A stretch of DNA of 64,000 nucleotides from assembly GCF_000003815.2 (NCBI RefSeq), contig NC_049979.1:7978217-8042216 (forward strand), written 5' to 3'. Below the pieces are notes generated by a model. It was not told the origin of the DNA and did no database searches. It saw only the letters and a list, made by a program, of their open reading frames with translations. Of the stretch, positions 3,001 through 59,868 are shown piece by piece; within the stretch, counting starts at the first letter, position 1, and each line of letters begins with the position of its first letter. Source of the DNA: Branchiostoma floridae (Eukaryota; Chordata; Leptocardii; Amphioxiformes; Branchiostomatidae). The position numbers and the translations under genes were made by a program.

Positions 3001-6000
3001 TTTGATACCCAAATACCAGAGCGATTGCATGTAATGTAATAATGCTGTTATTATGTAAAAAATTCATGTATCTCACTGCAACGTTTTACTTCAGTGTAAC
3101 TATACATGTATGAGACATTCATGATCAATACATGACATACATGATCAATTAGTTTTTGGCCTTGTCTCATAAAATGTTACAGAAGGAAGATTTTTTACAC
3201 TATTTTTCAACATAGTCCCTTCAATGCACTTGGTCCATTGATGTTCCAGTTTTGATATTCTTTGCTGGAGAAAGGTTGCATCTTGATCCTCTAGATAGGC
3301 CTCATCAACTTGGATGACGTCATCATCAGTCTCAAAATGATGACCATACAATTGGGACTTCAGTTTAGGAAACAGGTAGAAGTACGACGGTGCCAGGTCA
3401 GGTGAGTAGGAAGGATGAGGTAAGGCTTAGGGGAAAAATGTGTTTTTTCCTGTTTTAGTCCTAAAAAAATTAGAGTTGGTAGATAGGAATTACAAAAATG
3501 TATCTTTTTTTTTAAGTCTTTTTTTTTAGACTTTGGCCAAAACTCTAGTTGTACAATACAGTTTAACAAAGTAAGTGTGAATTGCTTGAGGACACTTATA
3601 TTTTCAATGTCAAGCTTTAATTTTGTGCATAACGCTTACAAATCTGTGGAAAGGTACATCCTTCATTAGACAGGACAAGCAGTTTTTTTACCTGCATTGG
3701 AAGCAGGCTGAATAAAAATTCTAACTATATCCACCCATCAAAAAAAGGCTAGGGTTGGCAGGTTTTTATAGGGTAGGTTGGGAAACAGGAAACACAACAT
3801 TTTTTCCCTTGGCCTAAGAGTTCAAAGTCACATTCGGTTGCTGCTGCCACTGCCACCTGTGCTGACCTGCGTGGACCTGTGCATTGTCCTGGAGCAACAG
3901 TACACCAGCTCGAAGCTTTCTTCTCCTTTTCTTGTTGATTGCTGCAGTTCAGAAGCATAGTACTCTCCTTTGACAGTTTGACCCTTCTGTAAGTAGATGA
4001 CCCCCTCGCAGTACAAGAACACAGAGGACCTCACCTTGCCAACTGATGTCACTTGCTTGAGCTTCTTGGGCAGCTGTGACCTTGTGTGTCCATTGCTTTC
4101 TCTGATCTTTGATTCTGGATGACGTAGTGAAGCCATGTCTCATCTTGGGGCACAAGTCTCTTGAGGAAGATGCTTGGATTTGACTGGAAATGGACCACTT
4201 CCATCCAACCTGTCCAACTTCTGAGGACAAGTCAACATTCGTGGCACCCACCTTGCAACCAGCTTGCTCCTCACACAAAAGATGTTTAACAAAACATTTT
4301 GAACTGCACCATAACTGATGCCTAATGAATGCCCGGTATGTTGGATAGTTACACATCCGTCACTCATTACCATGCTGCATTGGATGACCTCAACCTGATT
4401 GCCCGTGGTGCTTGATCTTGGACGTCCAGGCCTTGGCTCATCTTTTGTGCTGTCCTTTTGCTTACAGTTAGCAACCAACTTCTTTACAGTAGAGTAAGCA
4501 GGGGAGTCCTCACCAAGTGTCGTAACCATGTCTTCATGGCTTTCATTGATTTCCTTTTTTATTAAGATACTTCAGCACGAGCTTCTGTCTTGTCCATTTT
4601 GTGATTTCACCTTACTCTAATTCTGTTGATACTGACAAAGTTCTTCCCTCTTGAAGGATTCAACGTCCGTATAAGTGGGCAGGACGTTGGAAGGGGAACC
4701 TTCAGCCACCGACACTTCATGCTGATTGACCAGAACGATGACAGGATGCACATTCCACTGAACGACATAGTGGAGAATCAGCCTGGATATCTGGAGGTGA
4801 TGTATCATATTTTGGTCTACGCAACATGCACTCTTTCTTCTCAAAGCATTTGACACAGTCAATTATAGCCTATTGTCTAGTATACTATGCTACTTTCACT
4901 GTTACCCCCTGTATGCATTTGTCATTCATCAATTTCAGTAGTCAGCTTCGTCTTAATGTCTAGTAAACTATGCTACTTTCACTGGTACCACCTGTATGCA
5001 TTTGTTGTTCATTATTTTCAGTACTTCTTTGAGCACTTGCACAGTAAGAAGAATACATGTACCAGTATATATTTAGCTATGCACATACATGTACTTTCAT
5101 GTGTCTATGATTAGTATGAAATGTGAGCAAATTTTATTTGACATGTTGTTGACTTCCCTCCATAGGTGGCAAACAGCTCTCTATCAGAAGAGGCAGTGCT
5201 TGGGTTTGAGTATGGCATGAGCATCGAGAGTCCCAAGAACCTGATTATATGGGAGGCACAGTTTGGAGACTTCTTTAACGGTGCTCAAGTCATCATTGAC
5301 GCCTTTGTGGCCTCTGGAGAAAGTATGTTAAGTTTCATCTTTGTTGTGTATGTAGATCCGTATTTCTTCATCTATAGGTGTCTGTCTTTTGGGAAATAGG
5401 AATTTATGATTTATATATGTAACAACTTAAGATACAGTCAAAACCTACCAAATAATACCCAAGTAGACAACCACCGAAATTTCTATGTGGAAGGGGGGTA
5501 ATTATAAACTTGATTTTTGCTTTTGTTGATGAAAAAAAAACTAGAGGACCATCAAAAAGTGGTCACATTGGCATGGTTGTCCTTATATGTAGTAGTAGTC
5601 ACTTGTAGAAGTTTGACTGCATGGCATTTGGAGTGTTGCTATGTTATCTAAGTCCATCCTTTATCGTGTAAGTATTTTTCTGTGTTCCATGTAAGAGCTA
5701 ACATCAGCAGTTTGTATATCTGATGATTGTGTCAACACCCAACTTCTCACCAACGGATGTTGACACAAGCAGGCCTAATGGCTGACCATTTTCCCATCTG
5801 CTCTAGAAGAAAAGTTAACACCAGAAATGCCAGTAGCTTTTTTTATTACTTCTACATCGGCAGTTTTTTCCCATACAATACTCACTATAACACAACAAAC
5901 AACATATGTTCTATGAACTTCTAAAAACAATTGCATTCAATTTTAGATACTTTTTGTAACCTCAAATTAAAGTTACTCAATCTCTGTCTATCCTGACATC

Positions 6001-9000
6001 ACAATCTCTGCCTTGACTTGTGCATAGAGGCCTCTAACATCCATTATATCAAAGCAGCATTTTATATGAATTGAATTGAATTGAAAGACATTGTTATATC
6101 ACAAAATATCAGAAGCCTATTTCTGTTGTCAGAAAGTACTCAGTAATGGGAATTCATGCCGTATTCCACAGTACACATTACTACATTGAATAGAACTGCC
6201 CATAGTTATAATGAATAAGGGATGGGTTCTTTTGGATTCATGTCTGAAATTTGATACTACTGATGCCTTTGATGTTCTGATTATGATATATATATGTACA
6301 CCACTGTGACATCAATATTAGCGTAAAAATACTGTGATTCACATTACTATAGCAGGGTTATATGCCCGCTGCAGTTGAATTAATTGCAACTATACTGCAT
6401 ATTGGTTAGTTGCCAGCTCATGTTTTCTGATTTTCTCAAAGATTAACTAGCCCTTGATCAAAGCTAGAAGGAGCTAACTTACCCTGGAACAAATGGTATC
6501 TAGTTCAATTTGTGATATATGTCCCACTGTGTTCCTTGACACTCTAGACGATTGTCTGTGAGCCAATATGTTGTTATCCTGTCCCTGTTTTCTACATATC
6601 TTACAAAAAATGCTGTAAAATGACTTTCTAAATACTTTGTCCCTGTAGGCATACACAATAGGGTTAACAGCAGAATTTGTAAAAGGCAAGGTATACACTA
6701 GAGTAAAGAATATCTTTGGATCCAAGCCTGTATTTCCAATGATAATGGTGAGCCACATGATTAGTATCATCGGCAGCCAGCATATCAGCAGGCAGCCCAA
6801 GATGATGCTCAGCGTTTTGACAGCTTTCATAGTGCCAAGGAATACGTTCTGCTTTCGTTGCTCTATTGTCATCATTGGTTGCACGGCTGAAATCCTTTGG
6901 GTCTGCCTTCGAGCTGCCCGGAAAACCAGACCGTACATGACAATGATGCAGACCAGTGAGATGAAGACAGGGGTGATGAAGAAGTGACCTACGCTGTAGT
7001 GGTCGAATATGTCCATCACACTGCATTCTCCCGTCTTCAGAAACTGTTGTGGATAGCACAGGCCAAATAGCTGTAAAGAACCCAGACCACATGCCACCAG
7101 CCACACAAGAACTAGCAGTCCTGTCCTGGCCTTCCAGGTCATTATGTTGTGGTAGTGTAGCGGTTTCATGACGGCTATGTAGCGGTCGATGGACAAGGCG
7201 AGCAGGTTGAAAACGGAGGCGCAGAAGATGCTGATGAGTGCGATCCAGTAGAACAAGCAGCTTCCATAGTTTTCTGTCACAAGTGGATGCCCATGGACTG
7301 TGTTATGGATATGGAATGTTGCAGCAACCACACCGATGATCAGGTCTGCCACTGACAGGCTGACGATGTAAAAGTTGGTAGCAACTTGTAGCTTTCGTGT
7401 GACAGTAACGGCTATAATGACGAGGCTGTTCCCTATCAGTGTGATCAGGCATATAGGGCCATTTACAAACACTAGCAACACTATCCTTGTTTGCGTGCTC
7501 GAATAGAGTTCATCTGTCCATTCTGTTTCACCATTGCACCCCTCTGTTGCATTTTGGATGGAGTCATTTTTTAGATATGAAAAGTTAGCAACTCTCAGAC
7601 ATGAAGACATACTCGTTTGTCTTGTAAGTAATTGTACTCCTTCAGAAATGGGTTCTTGAATCTATGAACTTTTCAGTTCTTAGTCGTATAACATGGACTT
7701 TATTCAGGTGTCTTCCTTATCGTTGGTAAAGCTCCTTTGACAAATATGCAGTTCTCACTAGACAGCAAAGATGGGAGCTTACCTGCTCCTTGCCTTGATT
7801 TAGAGATGTCCTGCCTTGTCGTGAAGTGTATTACCAGTAACAATTTTCTTGAGATGCTGTAGAAGAGATTGTTGCGAGCAAAAAGTCTATGCTGTTCTCA
7901 CGTCTTTTGTCTTGTTGATGAACCAGGTGTCCTCTTTCCATACCCGATGTGTCCGGCAGTCTTGCCACTTGTTTGAGTTTGCTTATTTCCTTTGCTTTAT
8001 ATCCCCACGTTAAGTGGGTATTTGACCAGTCCTGCATAATCTGCCTGGTGCTTGTTTACCTTGCTAATGGGTGGTAATTTAGCTGGAAGGTAGCTATGGA
8101 AAAGTATAGGAGGTAGTTTCCATGTAGTTCTAGGAAAGCTAACCACCAGTTTACTCTGCTCTTACTACCGTGACTCATAATTTCTTCCGTCTTGACGATG
8201 ACCATCAAAAACGTCATGACACAGGAATACATGGCATCATTGGAAATGTTTAAGTTGTGATAATGCTCTGTATGACATCAGAGAAGTTCGAAAAACTGAC
8301 ATTTTATGCTACTGTATTTGATTTGACTTGGTTGTGCGTAAAAGACAACTCAATATTTGCAATCAATGAAGTTAGATACAACTGCATGTGTACATAAACC
8401 TGGAGTCACAACATCAGTGAAGTGATTTATGGATAGTGAGCTACTGGGTATGTCTAGACAATTTCTGACTTAATTGGCCCGGTATTGTTAAGTTTTTGTA
8501 GGAAGCTATTCTCAAGTGGTATATGGTTATTCTCAATCTCCATCTGTTTACTCAAATCCTAAAATAGGAACCTTTTAAGAATTATGTTATAATCAATTTT
8601 TAGCAAAGACTATGGAAAAATTAAAAAGTAACATGTTCAAGAGTTGTCTATTCTACTTCTTAAAGAACTTTTTATGAAAAAAATTGAGCAAACCAATACT
8701 TTTATTCACGCTATACTAACACTAACAGTTATCAAAAGAAAAATGAAGCATGGGAAAAGTCAGGATGTCTTTCTTCTTCTTGTAGTTATCATTTGATTAC
8801 TAAAGTACCTGTCCCATTTGTCCAGCAAAATGGTTACTACAGAGTGGGCTGACCATCCTACTTCCTCACGGCATGGATGGGGCTGGACCAGAGCACTCTT
8901 CATGTAGGATAGAGAGGTGGCTGCAGGTTTGTACAATGTATTAGTCTTACTAATACTATGAACTGTAAATACAGAAATGTTCGCGGTTTTATGTTGGCGT

Positions 9001-27922: not shown

Positions 27923-30900
27923 CTAACCGGTGATGGTGAAGTTGGTCATCCCCTGGTCGTAGATCTGGCTGTGAGGATGCTTACTCCCACACTCACCATT
28001 GCAGATGGCTGTCAAACAGATACATTTCAGTAGCGTTAGATAAGAAACGTCATTCTAATTGTACAATAAATATGGCCTCTGTGTATGGTAAATGCATCCG
28101 AAGAAAAGCTGCATCGCATTTTAAAACTGTTCGTTCTTTTCTTTACTCGGTACAACTGTCTCACAGTGACCTAGCTGCAGCTGATTACCTTGATGTGTTC
28201 ATTATAACTATTGGAAGACTGATGAAGTTATACCATAACTCACCGATTGAGACGTTGTAAACGCCCGGCAGAAACTGTTCGCACGGACCCTGGGTGGGAT
28301 CACACTCTGGGTTCGGCTCGGCCTTCAGGGAGATCTTCTGTCCGTATGACCCTGCTTCTTGTGCCTCGAGAATGAAGCCCTGGCCTGGAGAATTAAATAT
28401 GGATAGAAATAAGTGAGTGAGAAACATTAAAGGCAAAGGATGAGCTTTTCGGTCCGTCCGGTAGTGATATGGTTTACTCGGTCCCGACAATATTGTAATT
28501 CCAATTTTATTCCAAATAATATTTTGCAGATCAAAACAATGGTGTAGATAACATATCACACAACTGCCTCAGTTTATAGAGTCACTTCGTGTGTTCTTAC
28601 CCAGCGGAATGCCGTCCACCGTGTCGATATCTATCACCATTTCACCTGTCCCCGTGCCGTTCTTGGACGTGTACTCAACGTCGATCATGAAAGTTCCTGA
28701 TGGTGCAGAACGGGACAACTATATATGATTAGTGTCTGAATGTAGCAAGAGAGCTGCGAGTAACAAAGATAAACCCAAGTTGGTCAGCATGTACAACTAA
28801 CGACGGCCAAACTATCGGGTATCATCTATCCAGCCAGTGTCCAACGTACCTCCCTCTTACTAGCCTGATTAAATCTCGCTTATAGCAGCCCGCCCAACAT
28901 TCGCGGGGAGGGGCCAGTTACAGCCCTGGACAGCGGAGTTTGTGTTACACAGACTACCCTCTTACCATGGCATCTCATTGGCAAAACGCTACTTCTATCA
29001 ACATCTTATGTTAACATGATAAAGCTCATTTGTGTAAGGGTCAAGCTATGCCATTCTCCCACGGATCAAGGAGCTCCTTGCACGGATATAGACTAAACTA
29101 GCGTTGATGGTGTTTGTTGGGAAGTTAGCTGTCTAACATCTTCATAAGTGAGCTTGAACAAATGAGCTAAGGACGTCATAGGCATGCGGTGATGACGGTA
29201 AAGCTTCGAATTCGACAACTTGAGTACCTTGTGGTCCAGACTTGGGGCTGACGTCAAGAGAGGTGATTTTGGCGTCGCCATCGTCCTTTATCGTGCACTG
29301 CTTCAGCAGCTCGCAGTAATAGATCGGGTCCAAGTCAGCACTACAAGTACAGGGACAAAACAGGAGTATGTCAGCCAACCAATCTACGAAGTAGGCAACT
29401 GTATCTAAGAATGTATAATGGAAAAAAGTGATGGGCACAGCTTAGGAAAACATTCTCATGTGAGGTAAGAAATCTTTGAGTTTACTTTTCGATTATTTTG
29501 ATGAATTCCTTCACGCCCTCGATGTCACAGAGCAGGTTGCAGGCCACGCCCAGCGCCTGGCTGCCGGTCTTGTCTGCCAGAGCTTGGCACAGGTCCCCAC
29601 ATGTTCCCACCACACCGACCTCTGTAGGCAGTAAGAGTTGGCTGAGTCTATATTACTCTAGAAACCAGACTTTTAGCCAGGGCCTGCAGAGCATCTGTTC
29701 TGGGTATTTCGCCGGCCTGCAAACTCTCCTTGCATGACCCCTCCCTGGAGTGCTTATCTAAGGTCTTTGGGACTTCCTTGGCTGCCGAACAGATTCTTTG
29801 CCGGCCCTGGCTAAAATCTGGGTTTCCGTGTTAAGTCTATATTAAATCACCGCAGATACGGATGAAATGCCGGCAAACGGCATCACCAGCTCACGGCTAC
29901 CCTTCGTTAGCATAATTCATGCACAAAAACCACAGCAAAGTCTTTGGTGCCATATTTTCATACATACGCCTCATATTTTACAGAGTTAGCAGTTTTCCTT
30001 CCCTATCATGTTGGAGAGTAGACAGAAAGAGACACAGCACAATACCGCCGTGGCAGTACATCTCAATATAGTTTTAAACGTATTTCCTGTATTTATTTAT
30101 CGTGATAACGTTTTGAGGTACTCACGAAGGATTATGTTGAGAAGCTGGTTGAGTGCCTGCTGACTAAAGTCTATGCAGAACTTGCAGAGATCCAAGTCCA
30201 CTTTGCTGGGCTTGAAGACCTGACCGATGGACAAACCACCGGCCCGAACCAGTGCCGGTCCCCGGCGGGAAGGGGGTCGGACAGCCAGGCACTGGGAAGC
30301 CAGGAGAACGGCAAGAACCACGGCGACAGACTGGGGTTGCGGAAAAAACACATTTATAGGCACTGTAACCTTGCTTGCAAGTGTCAATACAAGTAATTAG
30401 AAAGCCTAATAAAAACTTTCATTTGAAATCTATACGGCATTTTTTAAGTCTTTTTTTTATGTTTATCATTGTCAGCTGCTTACATGTACGTATCGCATGA
30501 AATGTACCAATGACATATACATTAAACCGTGAGAGAAAACTGGAACATTAACGATTTTTCATCGCAACAGGTCATATGACGCCAGTCACGTCTTTATCAC
30601 AATGGTAGCCTTGTCGAGGTAAAAGTACAACCAAACCAACATAGCAGACCTTTGGCCCCGTGTATGCTGACCTCATAGGTAGACGACATTGGTATGGAAA
30701 TTTACAGCAGTTTCTTTCAAACGCATTATCCTCGGTAAAGACTAGATCAAATCCAAGAGAATAACAGCATAACACAATGTGATACGAGGCAGTTATATCC
30801 CAGTTGTTGACTACTTGTTCACATTAACATGCGCAAGAAATGTATAAATGATATGCAAATGTACATGTAATGTTACCCACTACCCTATCTCACAAGAGAG

Positions 30901-35300: not shown

Positions 35301-38300
35301 ATGGGCCTTCTCCAGATTGTCTTGAACAACTTCTGAAGTGTATATACCTTACTGATACTGTATTGGTACATCCGTGAAAACTTTCATCAGGTTGGTACGT
35401 CACTAAATAAAGAGACTCTTTTTACACAACCATTGCTTTATTCATACCGACGTTTCGGTGACCGTCTGACTTGGGAGTAGACCCAAAATGTCAAAGAAAC
35501 CGAAACTCACCTTGTTTGCTGACGGATGTCCTATACAACAAGTAACAACAATGAAGCTACTTGGGAGCACCTTGGATGAGTGTCTCACGTGGGACCTCCA
35601 TGTAGAAGAAACCATAAAGAAAATGGCTAGGTCCCTGGGCGCCATCAGAAGGAGTGTTGCATACTTGGATCAGTCCTTAGTGAAAATGTTAACAGAAACA
35701 CTTACCTTGCAACATCTTGACTACTGTGCAGCGGTTTGGGCTTCTACTACACAAAAGAACATCACCGCACTACAAGTGATGCAGAATAAAGCAGGCAGAC
35801 TTACCTTGGGAACCAACCGCACCCCGATCAAGCATATGCACAATGTCTTATCATGGTTGACTGTAAGCGAAAGACTCTATGTAAGCAGCATGTGTACATT
35901 TCACAAGGTACTCCTTGCCAGGGAGACGTCTTCATTGTACAGTAGACTACATTTGGTATCGGACCAGCATAGTTATCACACGAGACACGCGGCACGGAAA
36001 AAATTAAGAACTGAAAAACCAAAAACAAACAGCCTGAAAAAATCCTTTACATATAGAGCAGCATTAGATTGGAACAAACTATCACATGAGCTGCAAACTG
36101 CGAACACATCCAGGATTTTCAGACGGCAGCTGGTGAAACATATGCGAGACTTAGCTAAAGACACATGAGGGGCTTGATGATTATTGGATAAGGCACATGT
36201 GTTTCGTTTAATGATTTTTTATTGACATGTTGTATGTGTGTATGTTGCAAACTGTATGTGTCCAAGTATTATGCGTATTACTCCTGGAAGATTAGTTGTT
36301 GCATTGTCATTGATATGTTAACGACTAAAGGAGTGAATGAACAATAAACAATAAACAATAAACAACTAGAGTTCGGGGACCTCATACCTCCATGAAATAT
36401 TCATTGCTTCTTGTGGATGTTATGTATGTTGATGGTCGGTTGTATTTGAGAGTAATGGATATTACTGCTATGGGTATCTGCTTGGAGCTAAGCCCATTAA
36501 CAAACACTTAAAGCATGATGCCTGTTCCAATATATCGCAGATATAGGGGTGATTTCTGATATTATTACATCGATTATAACGACAGATACGGCGCCCAAAA
36601 TCTCATCGATTCGAGCTTTCATCACACCCCACCAACACAACAAGTATGAAACCAATCCATCCAGCCGTTCTTGAGTAATCTTGTACACAGACAGACAACA
36701 TAACAGAAAATATAACCTCCATTCCATGACATTTCATGGAGGTAATAAACCTTCTTCAGGGCAATTCTGACTGGTTNNNNNNNNNNNNNNNNNNNNNNNN
36801 NNNNNNNNNNNNNNNNNNNNNNNNNNNNNNNNNNNNNNNNNNNNNNNNNNNNNNNNNNNNNNNNNNNNNNNNNNNNGCCCTGAAGAAGGTACATCTCTTT
36901 AAATCACTTGAAATTTCATGTTTTCTCATGTGGCAGTATTATGACATCCGCTGGAATTATGAGAGTTTTGTAATTATTAGACCCCTTTCGCATGTTAATA
37001 AGAGTTTTAGACCTCAGAGCGCAGGGAGCGGCTAGAAACCTTGATAGAAGGTGGAAGTTTGATATGAAGGGTTTGATTTTAGAGAAGGCGTCAGGTAGAA
37101 GATTACAGTGACATCAGAAAAGACAACGACAGTCTGTTGGAAGGTCTGGTCAACTTTGATAGGGCCTTCACACTGAAACCGAATCAGCAGGAATCAAGCA
37201 GAACCAGCTGGAATGAAGTATTTGCAAAATTCGTGCCACATTCGGGGCCAGTCGGGTGCGATTTCCAAATGGACCTTTTATCCTCTTCACACGTGAAGGA
37301 ATGAGCCCAAATGCAGTCAGAATGAAAATTGTTGTCTATTTATGTGAATTCGTAGTGTATTCTAGAAATTCCACTCCATTCCAGATATTCTTTTGGCCAC
37401 ATTCTGGCAGTTCGAAGTAGGTTGCCGATTCAGTTCTCCATCGAATGAGATACGAATGTGTCGAATAATGTTAAAATGCCGTAGAATGCGGTCATGCTGC
37501 AGTTAGAATAGTTAGAATGCGCTCAGAATCCACTTTGAATGCCTCTCGATATTTCTCCACTTTTTATGATGCACCTCGACAGTTTTTAACATGTCAAAAA
37601 CTTTCGGGCCAGCCAAAAGAACGGGCACAAATGACTGGAATGCAGTGAGAATTTCTGGAATACACTACGAATTGCCAGGAATTGCCAAGAATAGAAAAGA
37701 ATTTTCTTTCTGACGGCATTCCGGCCCATTCTTGCTCTCGTGTGAAGGGGGTGTACGGAACCAGCGGACCAAAAATGGTGTCTGTGACCTTAGTCTTGCA
37801 CGCATGCAGAATTTTAGACATTATAGAACAGGGAACAGGTTGATAAATGATAAGTTTGATATAATTTAGAGAAACGCTCGATGTAGTAGGCACGGCGGCA
37901 CCCCTACCACCAGTCTGTTGGAATAATCCTAGTCGTCAAGTCTAAGATTACATGACACGCGCGTAAAACATTTTGGTGCTAGTATCAGGGCAAACGTCAG
38001 ACTCGACCTCATTATGCGTATTAACAATAACGTACCTTCGCCCCGTGGTATGAACTGACCATAAATGTAGGCGCATGTGGAAATGTGTATAGATCATGTC
38101 TTAACCCGGTAATGCTGACCTCATAGGTAGACTACTTTGGCATGGAAATTTATAATGAACGTTTCTTGAAAACGCGTTACCATCGGTAAAGATTCGATCA
38201 AATACAAAGCAAAACATAATGTGATACAAGGCAGTTAAGACTCATTTGTTGCCTACTTTTCGCATCAAAATGTGCACGAAATGTACGATGTACAAATGTA

Positions 38301-40108: not shown

Positions 40109-43100
40109 TTACAGCCGTGACGGATCTGTTGGTGCTGGTCCAGTGATGGTGAAGTTAGTCTTCTTCTTATCATAAATCTTGCTGTGGGGATGATGGCTCA
40201 TACACTGGCCATTGCAGACATCTGTTAGGAAAAGACAAGATCCTCATTACAATACTTTGTATGGTAAGAGCAATATGTCTTCTACATAGGCCATTCTTCT
40301 CTCCGTGATTCGACGTGAATAGTTTCATCAGTTTGGTATGTTACTGAATAAAGAGATTCTTTTTACACAACCCACAACCTAACTTTTCGTGATGGACGTT
40401 TCAGTGGCCGTCTGTCACCTTCCTCGGGGCAATTCTAACTGCTTCACACTGCTTCATATGTCATTTTTTGTCCTATATATGACGTTTTGCTCCGTAGTTA
40501 AACATAGTTTTAAACATAACTCACGCATAGTGACGTTGTAAACGCCCGGCTCAAAACTTTCGCATGCGACCTCGCAGCCTTGTTGCGGCACTGCATGCAG
40601 GGTGATCTGTGCGTCGTACTTCCCTGGGTCCTGGGGCTCGTTCAGGAAGGACGCACCTGATGTGTTGAACAAGCACGGATAAAGATAACTGCGTGATCGT
40701 AGTGAAGCCTCCGACGTAGAAACTTTACAAACCTCTACATTCCCTTGCTCTCTTTGAAAATAGAAATTTATGAGGTTCCTCAAATATACAACCATTAGTA
40801 TTGTCCAGTGTTCTAGCCAGTCTGAATTTTTTTCTGTCCCCTGTCTATTCTATTTCGAATAGAAATCCTGTCGAGCGCAGAAGGTGCAACGATACGCGGG
40901 GGTCTGAGAAAATTTTAATATCTAGACCCTCTGAAACATTATTTCCTGCATTTTGGAGACAACTTTTGCTGGTAGAGTAGACTAAGCTTGGTTCAATGGT
41001 ATCTGTGCTAAATTTCTGGAGATCTTTGCAAAATTATTTTTTTAAATATGGCGAGTTTGTCCGTCACAGAGGACAGAATGGCCATTTTTTTTCCGTCCCC
41101 AGCACTAAAATTCCATCAAAAGACAGAAGGACGGGCACTGGATAGAACCCTGGTATTGTCTCGTCCCCATGGCAGATCTTACCTAACGGCAGGCCGTCCA
41201 CAGGGTCCACGTAAATCAGCAGCTCGCCTGTCCCCGTGCCGTTCTTCGTCTCGTACTCCATGTCGATGAGAAAATCTCCTGACGTGCAAAACAAAAGAAG
41301 TGTATGGATGTGAGAAAATCAGAAGCAACCAAAACGGCAATAATGAGCGGGTAATTTCAGAATTTCAGAGAGCATACATGATAAACTAACTACAGGGAGG
41401 AATGTAATAATGTTGACTGTTGTGTGGCATACTCGAATGGAAAAGTATGAACAGTAACCGGCTAGTTTTTGATGGGGTTTGTTGAAGAATTGAGATTTTG
41501 AATGGCTTGATTACCTTGTGGCCCAGACTTGGGAGTGACGGTTAGCTTGGTGATTGTCGCATCGCCGTTGTCGACTATCGGGCACTGCTTCAGCAACTCG
41601 CAGTAGTAGATCGGGTCCACGTCAGCCCTGCGAATGGAACAAGAGCATACCGGTGTCGTGGATTACTTCATTCCTCACTACTAGGACACCATTCATATTT
41701 AGGAGCAACCTTATTATGCTGTAAGAAAGTTCAATGAAGATTGGCCATGAACTTGGCTTAAAATCGTCTGTAAACCGATATTCTTGCGAAGGATGTAGAT
41801 ATTTTAAACGGCATATTGAACAAGATAAAAGCATTTACTTTTCAAATGCATGGACGAACTCATCAAAGCCGACGAGGGCACACAACCCGTCACAGGCTAG
41901 ACCCACCGCCTGGCTCCCGGTTTTGTTGGCAACGATCGAACACAGTTTTTCACAGCCTTGCGTTAGCCCACCCTCTGTGAAAAGAAGAAGAAGAAATTGA
42001 TTTATTAAATAAAACTGCAATATACAATATACAGAAAACCACAACATCTAATGTACTTGCATAACCTCCAAGAAGCACTGAAATACAGTCCAAGATTTCC
42101 TTGTAGTTCATTTGTATTTTATACTGAAAAGTACAAACTGCATATCCTGACAGATTTGTTTGATCCACTCACACACATCATCGTCAACCGGGGCTACATC
42201 CCTGACGGGCACCGGCGCAATTCTGTGACCGAAGCCTTAATGATTACTCCTACCTATCAGTCAGAACAAATTGCACACAGTTTAACTGTTATTCTGTGTA
42301 CTCACCGAGAATGGCCTCTCCAATCGTCTGGATAGCGTTATGAGCAAAATCCACGCAGAACTTGCACTTGTCCCTGTCGTTTACGTTGCTAGGCTTGGAT
42401 GCCCTGCTGCTCAGAGACCAGCTGCCGCCAGTCCGAACCAGGGGCGCCTGGCGACGGGGAGGGGGGCGGTCAGCCAGGCACTGATGTGCCAGGAGAACGG
42501 CAAGAACCATGGCGGCGAACTGGAAAAGTAGATAAAAACATCGTCCATCTTAGGATATAGGAGTTTTCTTGTACACAACCAGTTAATCTCACCATAACTG
42601 GTTGTGTAAAAGAAAACTCCTATGATCTACCAACGGCGGTATCCATCCAGCATCCACTGGCCATCGGTGGCCATCCAGCATCCTCTGGAGAGTTCATGCT
42701 AGACCCCGCCCTTTCGCATGTTTATAAGAGTTTTAGACCTCAGAGTGCAGGGAACAGCTAGAAACCTTGAAAAATGGTATGAAAGTTTGATATGAGGGGT
42801 TTGATTTTAGAGAAGACGTCAGATAGAAATTACGGTGACACCTGTTAGTTATCTCCCAACCCTAACAACAGTCTGTTGGAAGGTCTGGTCAAGTTTAAGG
42901 AACCAGTGGACCAAAATAGCGTCTGTGACCTTACTCTTGCACACATACAGACTTGCACATGTGCAGGGTGTTAGACCTTTGAGAACAGGGAACAGGTTGA
43001 TAAGTGATAAGTTTGATATGAGGATTGTTAGAGAAAGACTCGATGTAGAAGTCACAGTGGCATCCCTATCAGCTTGGTGGAATAGTCCTGGTCATCAAGT

Positions 43101-52733: not shown

Positions 52734-55700
52734 TTACAGTTCAAACTTGCTCTGGACCTCATCAGCGATCATTTTAGCGATGGCGAGAGACGAGGTAGCG
52801 GCAGGAGACGGGGCGTTCCTGACGTGTAACATCCGACTGCCCAGCTCTCCGACTCCGCCGTCAAACACAAAGTCATCCACCAGCTGCCCCTCCTCATCTA
52901 GCGCCTGGGCACGCACTCCTGATGGGCCCCTGGGGAATACATGCAGTACTGTGAGCTGTGGTTTAGAGTGGGTTAGAAAATATACTGATATAGACTGAGT
53001 GAAATATCTAAGATTGGTGGGTAAGATTCACAACTTGTCTGGTAAGTGCACATTTTTACTGAGTGAATACTAGTAAATGTGAAAGTGATCTTGATCTGAT
53101 CTGATTCAGCTCACTGAAGCACTGTTTTTCTACTGGTTGTGACAGATAATACAGATGCTATGTACAATATTTACAGGTTTATTGTATGGGTGAAATTCCA
53201 CTAGCTCTTTTCCACAGGTACAATGAACCACGTCTTAACCTCCAATGTAAAGGACTGCGACTGTTTCCAATACCATGCAAGTTAAGTGATTGACAACAGC
53301 CGGGATTCAAACTCTTTGGTCCACAGGCAGTTTCACTAATGCATGCTACACTAGTGAGTGCTGTTGGTTTACAAGTTTTAGATGTCAAAAGTCATGTCAT
53401 AAAAAGTTGAGGAGAGCTGACCTGGTGACATCCTGCACCCTGAGTTCAGGCACATATCTCTGCAGCTTCTTGACCTGAGCTGCCATGTTGAATCCTCTCC
53501 AAAGCTCCCCCACGCCAAACTGCCAGTGTTTGTACACCAGTTTACGCAGACCCCTGAAAACCAATGGCACACATAACACTAACAGCAGGAAGCAAGGATA
53601 ATCTACAAAATACCCCACCACAGAAATAAAGATTACCAGTGAAAGAAAGGGATAAGGAATGCGTGCAAAAAAGTATAGGAAAACTTCTGGTGTGTTGGTA
53701 CCATGATTTGCAAAATCTGCAATAAAAATCTATCTGCCAGTTAAGCAAGCTGTGTACTACTGCTACAAAACTACAGAAAACTTCTTTAATGTCTTCACAC
53801 AACATACTTGAATGCTACAGCATCTAACGTGTCAGTCAGATCAAAATCCAGCATCTTGTAGCCCTCCCTCTTGAAGACTAACACAGCGTTTGGACCGAGC
53901 AACACGTTTCCATCCAGACGGGGGGTGAAGTGTACACCGAGCCATGGGAACCGGGGGTTAGGCACCTGGAAAGGGAGCTCTTATAAAGTTCCACATCCTT
54001 ACACCCAGAAATGCACTCAGTTAGACCAGACCAAGTTTGCTACTTGTTTCATTGACTTTCGAGATATAGGAGCATTTGTACATGTTTATACTGAGCTGAC
54101 AGAAACAGTTGTTACTGTAGCTGAGACACCTGTAATGATACTGGACAAGGAGAAATGTTTGTTTGGATTTATTTTTGTGGTTGTACGAGAATTAAGTACA
54201 TACATGTAGACAATGTCAGCAGCAGTTGAAACGGTCATGCAGGGTTTTGCTGTTAAAGGGGTAATGTTCGTGATGGTTACTGCAAACAATGCAAGCCTAG
54301 AACCACCACAAACACTTCCCCTTTCTCAGAGTAGGCATACAAAAAGTCAAGATATATCAAGTCATAAGATTAGGACAGATGCATCCAAGAAAGAAGCAAC
54401 CAAGCTCAGTCTGGTCTACCTGTAGAAAAGTCATCACTAATACTTACTTGAAGCCTAGAGCATCTACAGTATCTTTAAGGTTGAAGTCCAGCAGTTTATA
54501 ACCTTCTCTCTTGAAAGCGAGGACAGCGTTTGGCCCGAGCCACATGCTACCGTCCATCCTCGGTGTGAAGTGGACACCCAGGAAGGGGAAGGCAGGGTTG
54601 GGAACCTTGGCAGGGTTGCAATGATTTGTCATGATAAGCAAAAAAAAACAGAAAGAAAAGAAGATTTCAAACAGAGAGAAGAAAAAGTGTTTTGAAAACA
54701 AATTATGATTATGGTACTTGGATGATGATGTTAATCAAGTAATTCAATCAATCAATCAATCAGTCAATCAAATAAATTAAGTAAAGCAAGTAAAAATCAA
54801 GCAAGAAGAGTGGGGGAGCATACCCTAGGTAGCCTTAATCAAAATGAAGACAACCTATAGACAGGATTTGAACACAACCTATAGTCAGGAAGCAATACAT
54901 TCATCTCACAATGTTATTGGCCTGGAAAACATTTGAGGTCCCCATCATGTGTTTGAATCCTGTGACTGGGACTCTCCTATGGCACACTTACAGGGTAGAT
55001 GTTGCCCTTAACCAGGTGGCACTTCTCAGGCTTCAGCAGCAGGTAGTCCCCGCGGAAACCCACAATCTTCGGCACGCTGCTGCAGCCGGACTTCTCCGCC
55101 AGTCTGTCTGAGTAAAGGCCTCCGCAGGACAGCACATACCTCGCACTGACTGTTTGCTGAGAGATGATAGTGACATACTCACTTAAGTACGTTAACAAGA
55201 AAACAATTTGCTACTCTCCAGGCTCCTCTACAGGAAAGAAAATGAAAAGAATTGCAGTCACCACTAGGGAAACGATAGAATGATATTAAAGACCACAAAA
55301 AAGCAAAACCCCTCATATGAAACCTCTGCTTAGAGAGTAAGAATTTGTCACCCTCTGAAATCATTTACAAGCCNNNNNNNNNNNNNNNNNNNNNNNNNNN
55401 NNNNNNNNNNNNNNNNNNNNNNNNNNNNNNNNNNNNNNNNNNNNNNNNNNNNNNNNNNNNNNNNNNNNNNNNNCTCATGACCGGACTATCCATCGATGTA
55501 ATTTTGAAGTCTGTTACCTCAAACTCAGTAAAAACCTGCCCCCCACTCTGCTGAAAGTTCCTGCCGTATGACCTTGCCACCACACCCCAGTCCACTATTC
55601 CAGTGTTAGGGGAGTCCAGAGCTTTTACCCCCTGGAATACAAAGTTGCAAAAGAACAACAGCTTTGTAACACATCTCTGTGAATCATGCATGGTAAGCTA

Positions 55701-56822
55701 AGCTTCACTTTCTCAATGTATCCAACAGTTGTTTGTATTCCATTTTTCTTCCTGACAATTTCTGCTATAAGCCATACAAGTTTTGTGCATGGATAGCTAG
55801 TGTGACCCTTAGCAGTCAGTCAGTCATAGTCATACGGTGTATTACAGCACTGTTGGGGTTATACCGCCCCTTACAGGGTGGAATGCCCTTTCTTAGCTGA
55901 ATACAAGACAGGGATGCACCAGGTCTCCCTTCGCAGAAGGTTTGAAAGGGTGCAAAAGTTTCAAAGAATTTGTGAGATCCAATCTTAATTCATGAGATCC
56001 AGCAGCAGTGCATAGGATACAACAGATGGGTATGCTTGCACAAATGCAGACCCACCCGACAGTGAGGCTCCATCTCCCTGATCTCCTGTGCCCCGATGAT
56101 GCGGAGTCCCTTCACACCGTTCTGCTGCCCTCGTTCATACAGCTTCTCCAGCCTGGGCACCTCCTCCTGATCCACCGCTACTATCAGCTGGAAGGGCAAA
56201 AAAATGGTCAGCTCTTACAGTGGTAAATGATGTCACATCTTTGTTTTGTATGCTAGTTTAGTAACAACGAGACAGAACTATGTATTGCCATTTTCTTATC
56301 CTGAACATGTACAATGTATATTCATCATCAATGTATATTCCCTTCAATTCTTTCTCCTGATCATCTTTAGCTCCATTGAGGTCATCCAGCTTATACTTAT
56401 AGCATGGTGTAGCTATGTTACACTTGGTATTTTGTGTTCTTAGAAACTACACAACACACAATGAAAGTTAGGTAACAAGAATTAAAGTTATTCATACAGA
56501 TATCCAGTAATTGACAAAAGAAAAAGGATGCTATCTGAAACGTCTAATACTGAGTATAAAACCTATCCAGTTGCTTTAGTAACTTTTGTACTGTGTTGAA
56601 TGATGACAGTTCAGACCAAAATTATGGCTTCTGACAACATGTGCATTGTACTTGGCTCAAGATAACCAACCTTTCCTGTCTTCTTGTATGGAATGTTGTT
56701 TTCATCGCAGTACTTGTAGGCCAGGTCCAGCCCCTCCACACACAGCCGTGCCTTCAGGGAGCCGGGTGTGTAGTAGATGCCGCTGTGGATCACTCCACTG
56801 TTGTGCCCACTCTGATGAGATG
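52734..56822 (-). CDS. L2HGDH: L2HGDH, L-2-hydroxyglutarate dehydrogenase (N-terminal exon(s) not found)
   Basis: This mitochondrial FAD enzyme oxidises the metabolic by-product L-2-hydroxyglutarate to 2-oxoglutarate. Exons in transcript order: 56822-56671, 56187-56056, 55631 to at least 55474 (runs into the gap), 55149-54992, then either 54605-54448 or 53965-53808, then 53553-53422 and 52929-52734. Visible blocks are [79 protein letters not shown] and [13 protein letters not shown]. Phases agree throughout. The FAD-binding GGGIVG exon and transit peptide are missing; they are probably in the 58620-58900 gap or beyond the window. The end of the third listed exon is lost in the 55374-55473 gap. 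The striking feature is a duplicated exon, listed separately. Confidence 0.94.
53808..53965 (-). other. L2HGDH: L2HGDH alternative exon, version B (downstream)
   Basis: 158 bp, with an AG acceptor (cag|gtgcctaac) and GT donor (aa|gtatgt). It encodes [20 protein letters not shown] and continues [20 protein letters not shown]. It starts in phase 0 and ends two bases into a codon, exactly like version A. Invariant stretches GVHFTPR, GPNAVL and FKREGYK are kept, so it looks functional. Substitutions relative to A include Met to Leu, Ser-Met-Trp to Asn-Val-Leu, and the last 15 residues. Confidence 0.9.
54448..54605 (-). other. L2HGDH: L2HGDH alternative exon, version A (upstream)
   Basis: 158 bp, with an AG acceptor (aag|gttcccaac) and GT donor (aa|gtaagt). 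It encodes [20 protein letters not shown] and continues [20 protein letters not shown]. It is closer to the vertebrate sequence (RMDGS-W) than version B. A 482-bp intron separates it from B. Because each exon is 2 mod 3 in length, splicing both would shift the downstream frame. Confidence 0.9.
54745..54772. repeat. Microsatellite (TCAA)n
   Basis: CAATCAATCAATCAATCAGT and neighbours form a short tetranucleotide repeat in an L2HGDH intron. Confidence 0.8.
55374..55473. other. Assembly gap (100 N)
   Basis: One hundred unresolved bases. The gap removes the 3' part of an L2HGDH exon that begins at 55631. Confidence 0.99.
55840..55900 (-). repeat. Fragment of the 10686-10915 retroposon family
   Basis: On the minus strand it reads CCTGTAAGGGGCGGTATAAC, matching ataaggggcggtataacc in the copy near 10780. 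Only the central part is present. Confidence 0.5.
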
Positions 56823-57259
56823 CTGTGGACAGAAGATTTCATTATGTCTTCCCTGAGAAAACTAACAGTACTGAAATGTGACTGTCAGTAACTAAACAGT
56901 TACTGACAGCTATATTTCAGTAACATTTCAGTAAATAAGGACTACTGCCTCTTGAGTCTTCTGTAATATTACTGACAAGTACTTATGGCTTCTTAGTTCT
57001 TATTACTGATTTCTTATGGTTGTTTACTGTTGGTTCATTGGAACAATGTTTGTTGGCTGACCCAACAATGCAGATCCATCAATAGTATTGACAATAATCA
57101 TAACTTCATTTTGAATGCAACATATGCCAAGACAATGTTTTTTATCTAATGTTACACCTAGTGCTGATCCTTGTGTATCCGGCTGTCTGAATCCAGCTGA
57201 CATAACTAATGGTCTGCTACTGATCCATTACTGAAAATATCTGCATATTTTGTGAAATA
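56823..57259. other. Intron or upstream region of L2HGDH
   Basis: A/T-rich, no exon recognised. The first listed L2HGDH exon begins with two bases of a split codon, so an upstream exon must exist, but no GGGIVG-coding exon is seen in the readable sequence here. Confidence 0.6.
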
Positions 57260-57475
57260 GCTACGGCCGCGTGGCGCCTAGGTACACCCGATCCCTCGAT
57301 CTCGGAAGTTAAGCAACGCGCGGTCCAGACAGCTCTTGGATGGGAGACCCCCAACCAAGGACGACCGGATTGCTGTAGCCTCACAAAACTTTCCACGAAA
57401 TCGTACTTCCGGGAGGGACGTAAAACGGGGGTCCCGTGCTCGAGGAGGTGCCTCGACCACGTTAAACAGCCTCAT
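57260..57475 (+). repeat. 5S rRNA-derived sequence with SINE-like tail
   Basis: 57260-57380 (121 bp) has the length and order of a 5S rRNA gene. It begins GCTACGGCC, has GATCTCGGAAGTTAAGCAAC (box A region) and CTTGGATGGGAGACC (box C region), and ends GCTGTAGCC, which pairs with the start. Many bases differ from normal 5S. It is followed by CTTCCGGGAGGGACGTAAAA, a short hairpin (gctcgaggaggtgcctcga) and CCACGTTAAACAGCCTC, which resemble the body and tail of 5S-derived SINEs (SINE3/Deu type). I read it as a SINE or retro-pseudogene rather than a working 5S gene. Confidence 0.7.
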
Positions 57476-58619: not shown

Positions 58620-58900
58620 NNNNNNNNNNNNNNNNNNNNNNNNNNNNNNNNNNNNNNNNNNNNNNNNNNNNNNNNNNNNNNNNNNNNNNNNNNNNNNNNN
58701 NNNNNNNNNNNNNNNNNNNNNNNNNNNNNNNNNNNNNNNNNNNNNNNNNNNNNNNNNNNNNNNNNNNNNNNNNNNNNNNNNNNNNNNNNNNNNNNNNNNN
58801 NNNNNNNNNNNNNNNNNNNNNNNNNNNNNNNNNNNNNNNNNNNNNNNNNNNNNNNNNNNNNNNNNNNNNNNNNNNNNNNNNNNNNNNNNNNNNNNNNNNN
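58620..58900. other. Assembly gap (281 N)
   Basis: 281 unresolved bases. It could hide the first L2HGDH exon; it also spawns meaningless long ORFs. Confidence 0.99.
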
Positions 58901-59049
58901 CGGCACAGACCCGGAAGACAATTTTTCCGTGAGCCGCCATATTTACAGGTTTGCGGTAGCAAAACCTGTTCTGTGTTTGTTGGCATTTATGGGCGCCGCC
59001 ATATTGTTTTACGGTGTATGACGGGAAGGGTGGCGCTGGCGCCATTTGG

Positions 59050-59868
59050 ATATGACGGATTAGTGTGCTGTATGAAGTTATGAGATGACTAAGAAACGTG
59101 ATCTTGTGGTCTTGTCGGAAACGGCAGGACGGCAAGAGACACAAGCATGAAGTTTTAGTGTGTTGTATGAAGGGATTGAATGGGATGGTTAGGAAATATG
59201 ATCTTGTATTCTTGTCGGAAGCGGCAGGACGGCAAGAGACACAAGCATGAAGTGTTAGTGTGTTGTATGAAGGGATTGGATGGGATGGTTAGGAAATATG
59301 ATCTTGTACTCTTGTCGGAAGCGGCAGGACGGCAAGAGACACAAGCATGAAGTGTTAGTGTGTTGTATGAAGGGATTGGATGGGATGGTTAGGAAATATG
59401 ATCTTGTGGTCTTGTCGGAAGCGGCAGGACGGCAAGAGACACAAGCATGAAGTGTTAGTGTGTTGTATGAAGGGATTGGATGGGATGGTTAGGAAATATG
59501 ATCTTGTACTCTTGTCGGAAGCGGCAGGACGGCAAGAGACACAAGCATGAAGTTTTAGTGTGTTGTATGAAGGGATTGGATGGGATGGTTAGGAAATATG
59601 ATCTTGTATTCTTGTCGGAAGCGGCAGGACGGCAAGAGACACAAGCATGAAGTGTTAGTGTGTTGTATGAAGGGATTGGATGGGATGGTTAGGAAATATG
59701 ATCTTGTACTCTTGTCGGAAGCGGCAGGACGGCAAGAGACACAAGCATGAAGTGTTAGTGTGTTGTATGAAGGGATTGGATGGGATGGTTAGGAAATATG
59801 ATCTTGTACTCTTGTCGGAAGCGGCAGGACGGCAAGAGACACAAGCATGAAGTGTTAGTGTGTTGTAA
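59050..59868. repeat. Tandem satellite, exact 100-bp period, about eight units
   Basis: The phrase ACAAGCATGAAG recurs at 59141, 59241, 59341, 59441, 59541, 59641, 59741 and 59841, exactly 100 bases apart. Each unit contains CTTGTCGGAAGCGGCAGGAC, a ggcaagagacacaag tract and GTGTTGTATGAAGGGATTG. Units differ at few positions (gtggt/tattc/tactc; gttttag/gtgttag). The first unit (about 59050-59150) is diverged and the last is cut at 59868. No ORF runs through it. Confidence 0.97.

Follow-up and report, generated by a model that had tools for sequence, protein, structure and literature searches.

A tandem pair of probably mutually exclusive exons in the L2HGDH gene of the amphioxus Branchiostoma floridae

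In the amphioxus Branchiostoma floridae, an internal exon of a one-locus L2HGDH gene was very probably duplicated in tandem long ago, with both copies kept as mutually exclusive alternatives. The copies, here called A (upstream) and B (downstream), lie in a stretch of DNA of 64,000 nucleotides that was analysed as a whole (the window). Equal-length homology, frame logic, constraint on the encoded protein, usable splice sites and occurrence at one locus all support the tandem, mutually exclusive pair put forward in the original prediction, and we regard the pair as a strong prediction from sequence. Amphioxus thus probably has two forms of the enzyme at its disposal. The human counterpart is the only one reported to be specific for L-2-hydroxyglutarate, and its loss results in neurometabolic disease (PMC10726252).

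The L2HGDH gene and the frame logic of the exon pair

The gene was read exon by exon on the minus strand (Table 1). When the joined partial protein containing exon A was compared with the solved Drosophila L2HGDH (PDB 8w75), the match had an E value of 7e-143. The top NCBIfam match was the L-2-hydroxyglutarate oxidase model NF008726, which came first for three partial pieces of the protein (256.7, 252.6 and 173.6 bits); all three scores fall below the whole-protein cut-off of 299, as is expected when the queries are pieces. By its similarity to known members, the gene is assigned to the L2HGDH / LhgO family.

Two runs of N lie within the gene, one of 281 bases (58620-58900) and one of 100 bases (55374-55473), and gene models built from this sequence are therefore incomplete, although the exon pair is untouched by either run. 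A possible start codon is located at 58940, shortly before the longer run, where the portion of exon 1 that encodes the FAD motif is probably concealed. A GxGxxG-like FAD motif was absent from the minus-strand frames searched, and its expected place is this run. The shorter run probably masks the last part of exon 4. A 100-bp minisatellite (59099-59867) of 7.7 copies with 97% matches lies immediately upstream of the possible start codon. The first intron holds, on the opposite strand, a 5S rRNA-like segment (57259-57381, plus strand; Rfam RF00001, 38.8 bits, the gathering score being 38), which is probably a 5S-derived pseudogene or a short interspersed element.

Table 1. Coding exons of the amphioxus L2HGDH gene and predicted elements around exons A and B, in order of transcription (positions are those of the window)
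Feature	Position	Strand	Remarks
Exon 2	56671..56822	-	exon-by-exon reading
Exon 3	56056..56187	-	exon-by-exon reading
Exon 4, visible part	55474..55631	-	frame and fly similarity continue to the N run 55374-55473
Exon 5, common upstream neighbour of A and B	54992..55156	-	phase 0 end ...GNIYP; Tyr289 and Pro290 (fly numbering)
Pyrimidine stretch, 50 nt	54636..54685	-	86% pyrimidine; ends ~30 nt before A's acceptor, in the 109-nt AG-free zone
Exon A, upstream copy, 158 nt	54448..54605	-	conserved, standard-like version
Hairpin 5' arm (predicted)	54389..54440	-	starts 8 nt into the inter-exon intron
Hairpin 3' arm (predicted)	54005..54050	-	ends 39 nt before B; has a CTAAC branch-point-like motif
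Exon B, downstream copy, 158 nt	53808..53965	-	derived version, F298W (fly numbering)
Exon 7, common downstream neighbour of A and B	53422..53553	-	gives the third base of a split Lys codon
Exon 8, last coding exon	52734..52929	-	contains the stop codon; exon-by-exon reading

The geometry of the pair proved exactly as first described, in its coordinates, the 158-nt length of each exon, the 482-nt gap between them, their phases (0 in, 2 out) and their stop-free frames, and the boundaries given for the adjacent exons, 54992 and 53553, were also correct. Both exons encode the same L2HGDH segment, as had been claimed, since each aligns to fly residues 291-342. Transcripts joining exons 5, A, 7 and 8 or exons 5, B, 7 and 8 each stay open to one common stop codon. 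Joining A to B produces the anticipated frame break, with a stop 28 codons beyond the junction codon, and joining exon 5 directly to exon 7, with both copies skipped, leads to a stop after 3 codons of exon 7. Because inclusion or omission of both exons brings an early stop, a working mRNA must hold exactly one of them. Exon junctions lie downstream of both early stops, so nonsense-mediated decay of such mRNAs is expected. In the mechanism that we propose, an ancient tandem duplication of one internal exon would have given rise to A and B, the spliceosome would pick one or the other, and mRNAs with both or neither would meet an early stop and be removed by nonsense-mediated decay.

We searched the assembly (a 513-Mb genome in 431 contigs, with the L2HGDH locus on the minus strand) for further copies of these parts. 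Exon A had two matches, A and B themselves; the inter-exon intron had one, itself; and exons 7 and 8 were each found in one place, a single-copy result that is valid at the sensitivity of searches that score best candidates only and, for the intron, skip very common words.

Splice signals and the intron between the copies

The splice sites of both exons had been described as good. Their AG/GT edges are present as claimed, but "good" is too generous for A's acceptor and B's donor. The donors read GTAAGT (A) and GTATGT (B), and the acceptors end in AAG (A) and CAG (B). On a score table of human site frequencies, applied here to an amphioxus gene, A's donor scored 5.3 and B's donor 2.3, compared with 1.9-3.7 for four other scored donors of the gene.

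The first AG upstream of A's acceptor lies at a distance of 109 nt, compared with 10-28 nt at the gene's seven other acceptors, and 9 of the 3678 AG-to-AG intervals on the same strand of the window are that long. This zone contains the pyrimidine stretch listed in Table 1, and a CTTAT motif 29 nt from the acceptor leaves the usual branch-point distance possible. In published duplicated pairs the repressed member generally has the longer pyrimidine tract; exon 6b of TPM2 has a tract of 106 nt and an AG-free zone of 131, the values for exon 6a being 16 and 34, and ACOX1 goes against the rule in Table 1 of that paper (PMC5224494). By analogy, the long, displaced tract may mark A as the regulated copy and B as the default where pyrimidine-binding repressors are active. 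This step of the proposed mechanism is among the less certain, and regulation of A would be a little unexpected given that A is the conserved isoform.

Known routes to exclusivity are a frame break followed by decay, incompatibility of U2 and U12 sites, RNA structure, and crowding of the donor against the branch point (PMC7969005, PMC5740500). A frame break on double inclusion, which is a common but not universal feature of exclusive exons, is present here. Incompatibility of U2 and U12 sites is not supported: by eye and against the consensus, neither the donors nor the acceptors look U12-like. The branch-point route operates in vertebrate OGDH, where exclusivity is imposed by a distant branch point that lies close to the intervening intron's donor (PMC7969005); in contrast, the AG-free zone before B in L2HGDH is only 10 nt within a 482-nt intron, and an arrangement of that type is not supported for B. 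Pairing between introns of the docking and selector kind seen in Dscam was tested and not found, as 15, 53 and 13 of 60 shuffles were as good for the combinations of the exon 5-A intron with the A-B intron, the exon 5-A intron with the B-exon 7 intron, and the A-B intron with the B-exon 7 intron, respectively.

RNA structure within the inter-exon intron is a more tentative case. Its two ends are predicted to fold into a hairpin of 41 pairs (intron positions 8-59 with 398-443), which leaves 7 nt free at A's donor and has a 10-bp core with pair probabilities of 0.58-1.0. Such an end-to-end hairpin could make the intron effectively too short to splice and so block the joining of A to B before decay comes into play, although we consider it rather unlikely that it does so. 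The arms include a 22-nt pair that is 82% complementary, and ungapped pairing scored 38.0 against 23.3 (sd 2.6) for shuffled sequences, none of 60 shuffles being as good. Among 1184 windows of equal size taken from elsewhere than the locus, only 3 had an equal end-to-end helix. The duplex energy of the intron ends was matched by 1 of 400 shuffles in one test and by 5 of 1000 in another. For the five remaining introns with complete sequence, z values ranged from -0.26 to 2.04. The intron ahead of exon 5 contains a gap, and a fragment of it gave -2.13. For one pair of control introns the figure was as low as 1 of 60 shuffles.

Other comparisons were less favorable to the hairpin, which was itself spotted post hoc. 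Of 610 windows compared by duplex energy, 25 were as stable and 12 had z <= -3.0; for pairing between intron halves, 15 of 1184 windows were as good; and when all halves were considered at once by energy, 10 of 200 shuffles were as good. The arms also come apart once the pairing span is limited to 150 nt. In U2AF1, mutation of predicted inverted repeats had no effect (PMC5224494), and a hairpin in L2HGDH may be superfluous, since the frame break and decay alone may suffice. Because the intron matched the genome once, at itself, in a search that skips very common words, it is not an evident repeat element, and a transposon origin of the hairpin was rejected. Taken together, these data make an intron hairpin that hinders A-B joining suggestive, and it enters the proposed mechanism as another of its less certain steps.

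Age of the duplication and constraint on the two copies

Exons A and B are identical at 39 of 52 residues and at 70.9% of nucleotides. The 46 changes between them are distributed 9/7/30 over codon positions 1/2/3, such that 15 of the 52 codons are identical, 24 differ synonymously and 13 differ nonsynonymously. The dN between the copies is 0.164 by NG86 and 0.167 by YN00, and dS is saturated, being undefined by NG86 and 2.4 by YN00. When 46 changes were placed randomly on A in 5000 runs, a mean of 24.1 residues and a maximum of 33 were kept and 60% of runs gained a stop, so chance is excluded as the source of the similarity between the two proteins. The ungapped repeat extends 6 nt past one exon edge and 10 nt past the other. 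Beyond the exons, similarity between A and B is absent from the 200 nt upstream, where 323 of 500 shuffles did equally well, and is weak in the 200 nt downstream, where 15 of 500 did so. Saturated dS combined with a constrained protein indicates an old duplication with constraint on both copies rather than two alleles.

The fly chain 8w75, read with an offset of 40, agrees with the published numbering (Tyr289, Leu299, His302), and the duplicated exon thus corresponds to residues 291-342 of fly L2HGDH. In the fly enzyme, bound 2-oxoglutarate is held at its C1 carboxylate by the His302 side chain, with H302A abolishing activity, and at its far (C5) carboxylate by the Leu299 main chain (PMC10726252). 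Two changes equivalent to disease mutations also fall in this region: P290L, in the neighbouring exon, is inactive, and E324K, in the A/B exon, was not expressible (PMC10726252). The ligand-contacting residues Leu299 and His302, as well as Glu324, are present in both A and B.

We compared both versions with a bacterial profile built from the best 80 of 574 confirmed relatives. In this set of 80, conservation reaches 90% or more at 22 of the 52 columns. All 22 are kept by A and by the fly, and 21 by B. B's one exception is the replacement of Phe298, which adjoins Leu299, with Trp. Position 298 is Phe in 79 and Trp in 1 of the best 80 of 574 relatives, a ratio that compares those two residues alone, since the seed pattern FP[FW]LGVHF, which fits at least 79 of the 80 loci by column counts, admits only Phe or Trp at this site. 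With its single W298 row, this same set of the best 80 of 574 was uninformative regarding covariation of F298 and W312. Of the 13 residues by which B differs from A, 11 are also present at the corresponding site in one or more relatives among the best 80 of 574, the two absent from those 80 being S310N and L328M.

A is identical to the fly at 38 of 52 residues (14 differences) and B at 32 of 52 (20 differences), and 8 residues common to A and B differ from the fly. With the fly as the one animal outgroup on which the branch comparison rests, seven sites set B alone apart and one sets A alone apart (residue 295, where B keeps the fly's Arg; two-sided p 0.07). Given this greater divergence, B could be under weaker constraint. 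A is the conserved version, and we infer that it encodes the standard enzyme and B a tuned version of it, with F298W beside Leu299 being the likeliest single candidate for a functional difference. Functional differences between the isoforms, whether in substrate use, in kinetics or in stability, are plausible, as the original prediction had suggested.

The divergence of B also bears on whether only one exon is now in use, with the other a relic in decay, intact in appearance only. B has diverged further than A, and neither A's acceptor, which lacks a close pyrimidine tract, nor B's donor is strong. However, even with dS saturated, neither copy has lost the frame, the splice edges or the residues Leu299, His302 and Glu324, whereas in the neutral simulations most sequences acquired a stop and none kept as many residues as the actual pair. 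We therefore consider a relic improbable, while a recent loss of use of one exon is conceivable. A mis-assembly, in which two alleles of one exon would have been set side by side or exons from two copies of the gene falsely linked, is very unlikely indeed: although the N runs reveal an imperfect assembly at this locus, and one of them (55374-55473) is 768 nt upstream of A, there is no N between the two exons, dS is far above allelic variation, the exon, the intron and exons 7-8 were found at the L2HGDH locus only (best candidates scored), and the flanks are as dissimilar as described above. A haplotype or joined-paralogue error was rejected on dS, the single locus and the flank comparison.

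Related exon pairs and possible metabolic consequences

Mutually exclusive exons, the explanation that we favor for A and B, have counterparts in other genes. In vertebrate OGDH, which like L2HGDH is a mitochondrial enzyme acting in the metabolism of 2-oxoglutarate, the tandem exons 4a and 4b are mutually exclusive, their combined length is not a multiple of 3, and a long pyrimidine tract is among their splicing signals (PMC7969005). The OGDH exons set calcium sensitivity, whereas the L2HGDH exon bears ligand contacts. In C. elegans and parasitic worms, the exclusive exons 6a and 6e of coq-2, whose product is a quinone-linked mitochondrial enzyme, alter the region of the active site (PMC8659336). 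For coq-2 a substrate switch is described, whereas the L2HGDH pair is known from its sequence, and the two proteins are unrelated; that paper names L2HGDH once, in another context (PMC8659336). The tandem homologous exons of U2AF1, FYN, TPM1, TPM2, ACOX1 and further genes resemble A and B in being unequal in pyrimidine-tract length and AG-free zone, although these are vertebrate genes with expression data (PMC5224494). Finally, the fatty-acid gate exons of ACSL6 generate isoforms of a metabolic enzyme by switching a gate domain (PMC1543647), but this is another enzyme, and the likeness is one of description, not of sequence.

In the open-access literature searched, we found no report of a duplicated exon pair in L2HGDH, and no paper that brought together L2HGDH and amphioxus or a hydroxyglutarate dehydrogenase and the duplication of exons. 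Among the papers listed on tandem exon duplication and Branchiostoma, there were studies of mechanism but none linked to L2HGDH. Both exons may already be present in a published gene model. Tandem exons that exclude each other are a familiar class, to which the pair would add a further example in an enzyme for which we found none described.

L-2-hydroxyglutarate is known to inhibit 2-oxoglutarate-dependent dioxygenases. A far-reaching and improbable extension of our reading is a metabolic switch, in which B, through F298W together with W312L, would take another 2-hydroxy acid or have a different affinity for L-2-hydroxyglutarate, splicing would tune the level of this inhibitory metabolite, and the hairpin would enforce exclusivity. 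More generally, if A and B do yield two natural isoforms that swap an active-site segment, these would provide a ready-made mutagenesis experiment on substrate recognition and would suggest that L-2-hydroxyglutarate removal is tunable by splicing in a chordate, and L2HGDH would join OGDH and coq-2 as a case of alternative exons tuning mitochondrial metabolism.

Elsewhere in the window, several open frames were noted by eye. One looks like a fragment of a mariner-type transposase (4140-4571, minus strand), another like a fragment of a LINE reverse transcriptase (35470-36168, plus strand), and a 395-residue frame resembles a single-exon rhodopsin-type GPCR (6474-7661, minus strand). Two related segments on the minus strand, at 28185-28568 (PGVYNVSIGEL) and 40454-40849 (PGVYNVTMREL), look by eye like GM2-activator-type domains and possibly arose from gene duplication.
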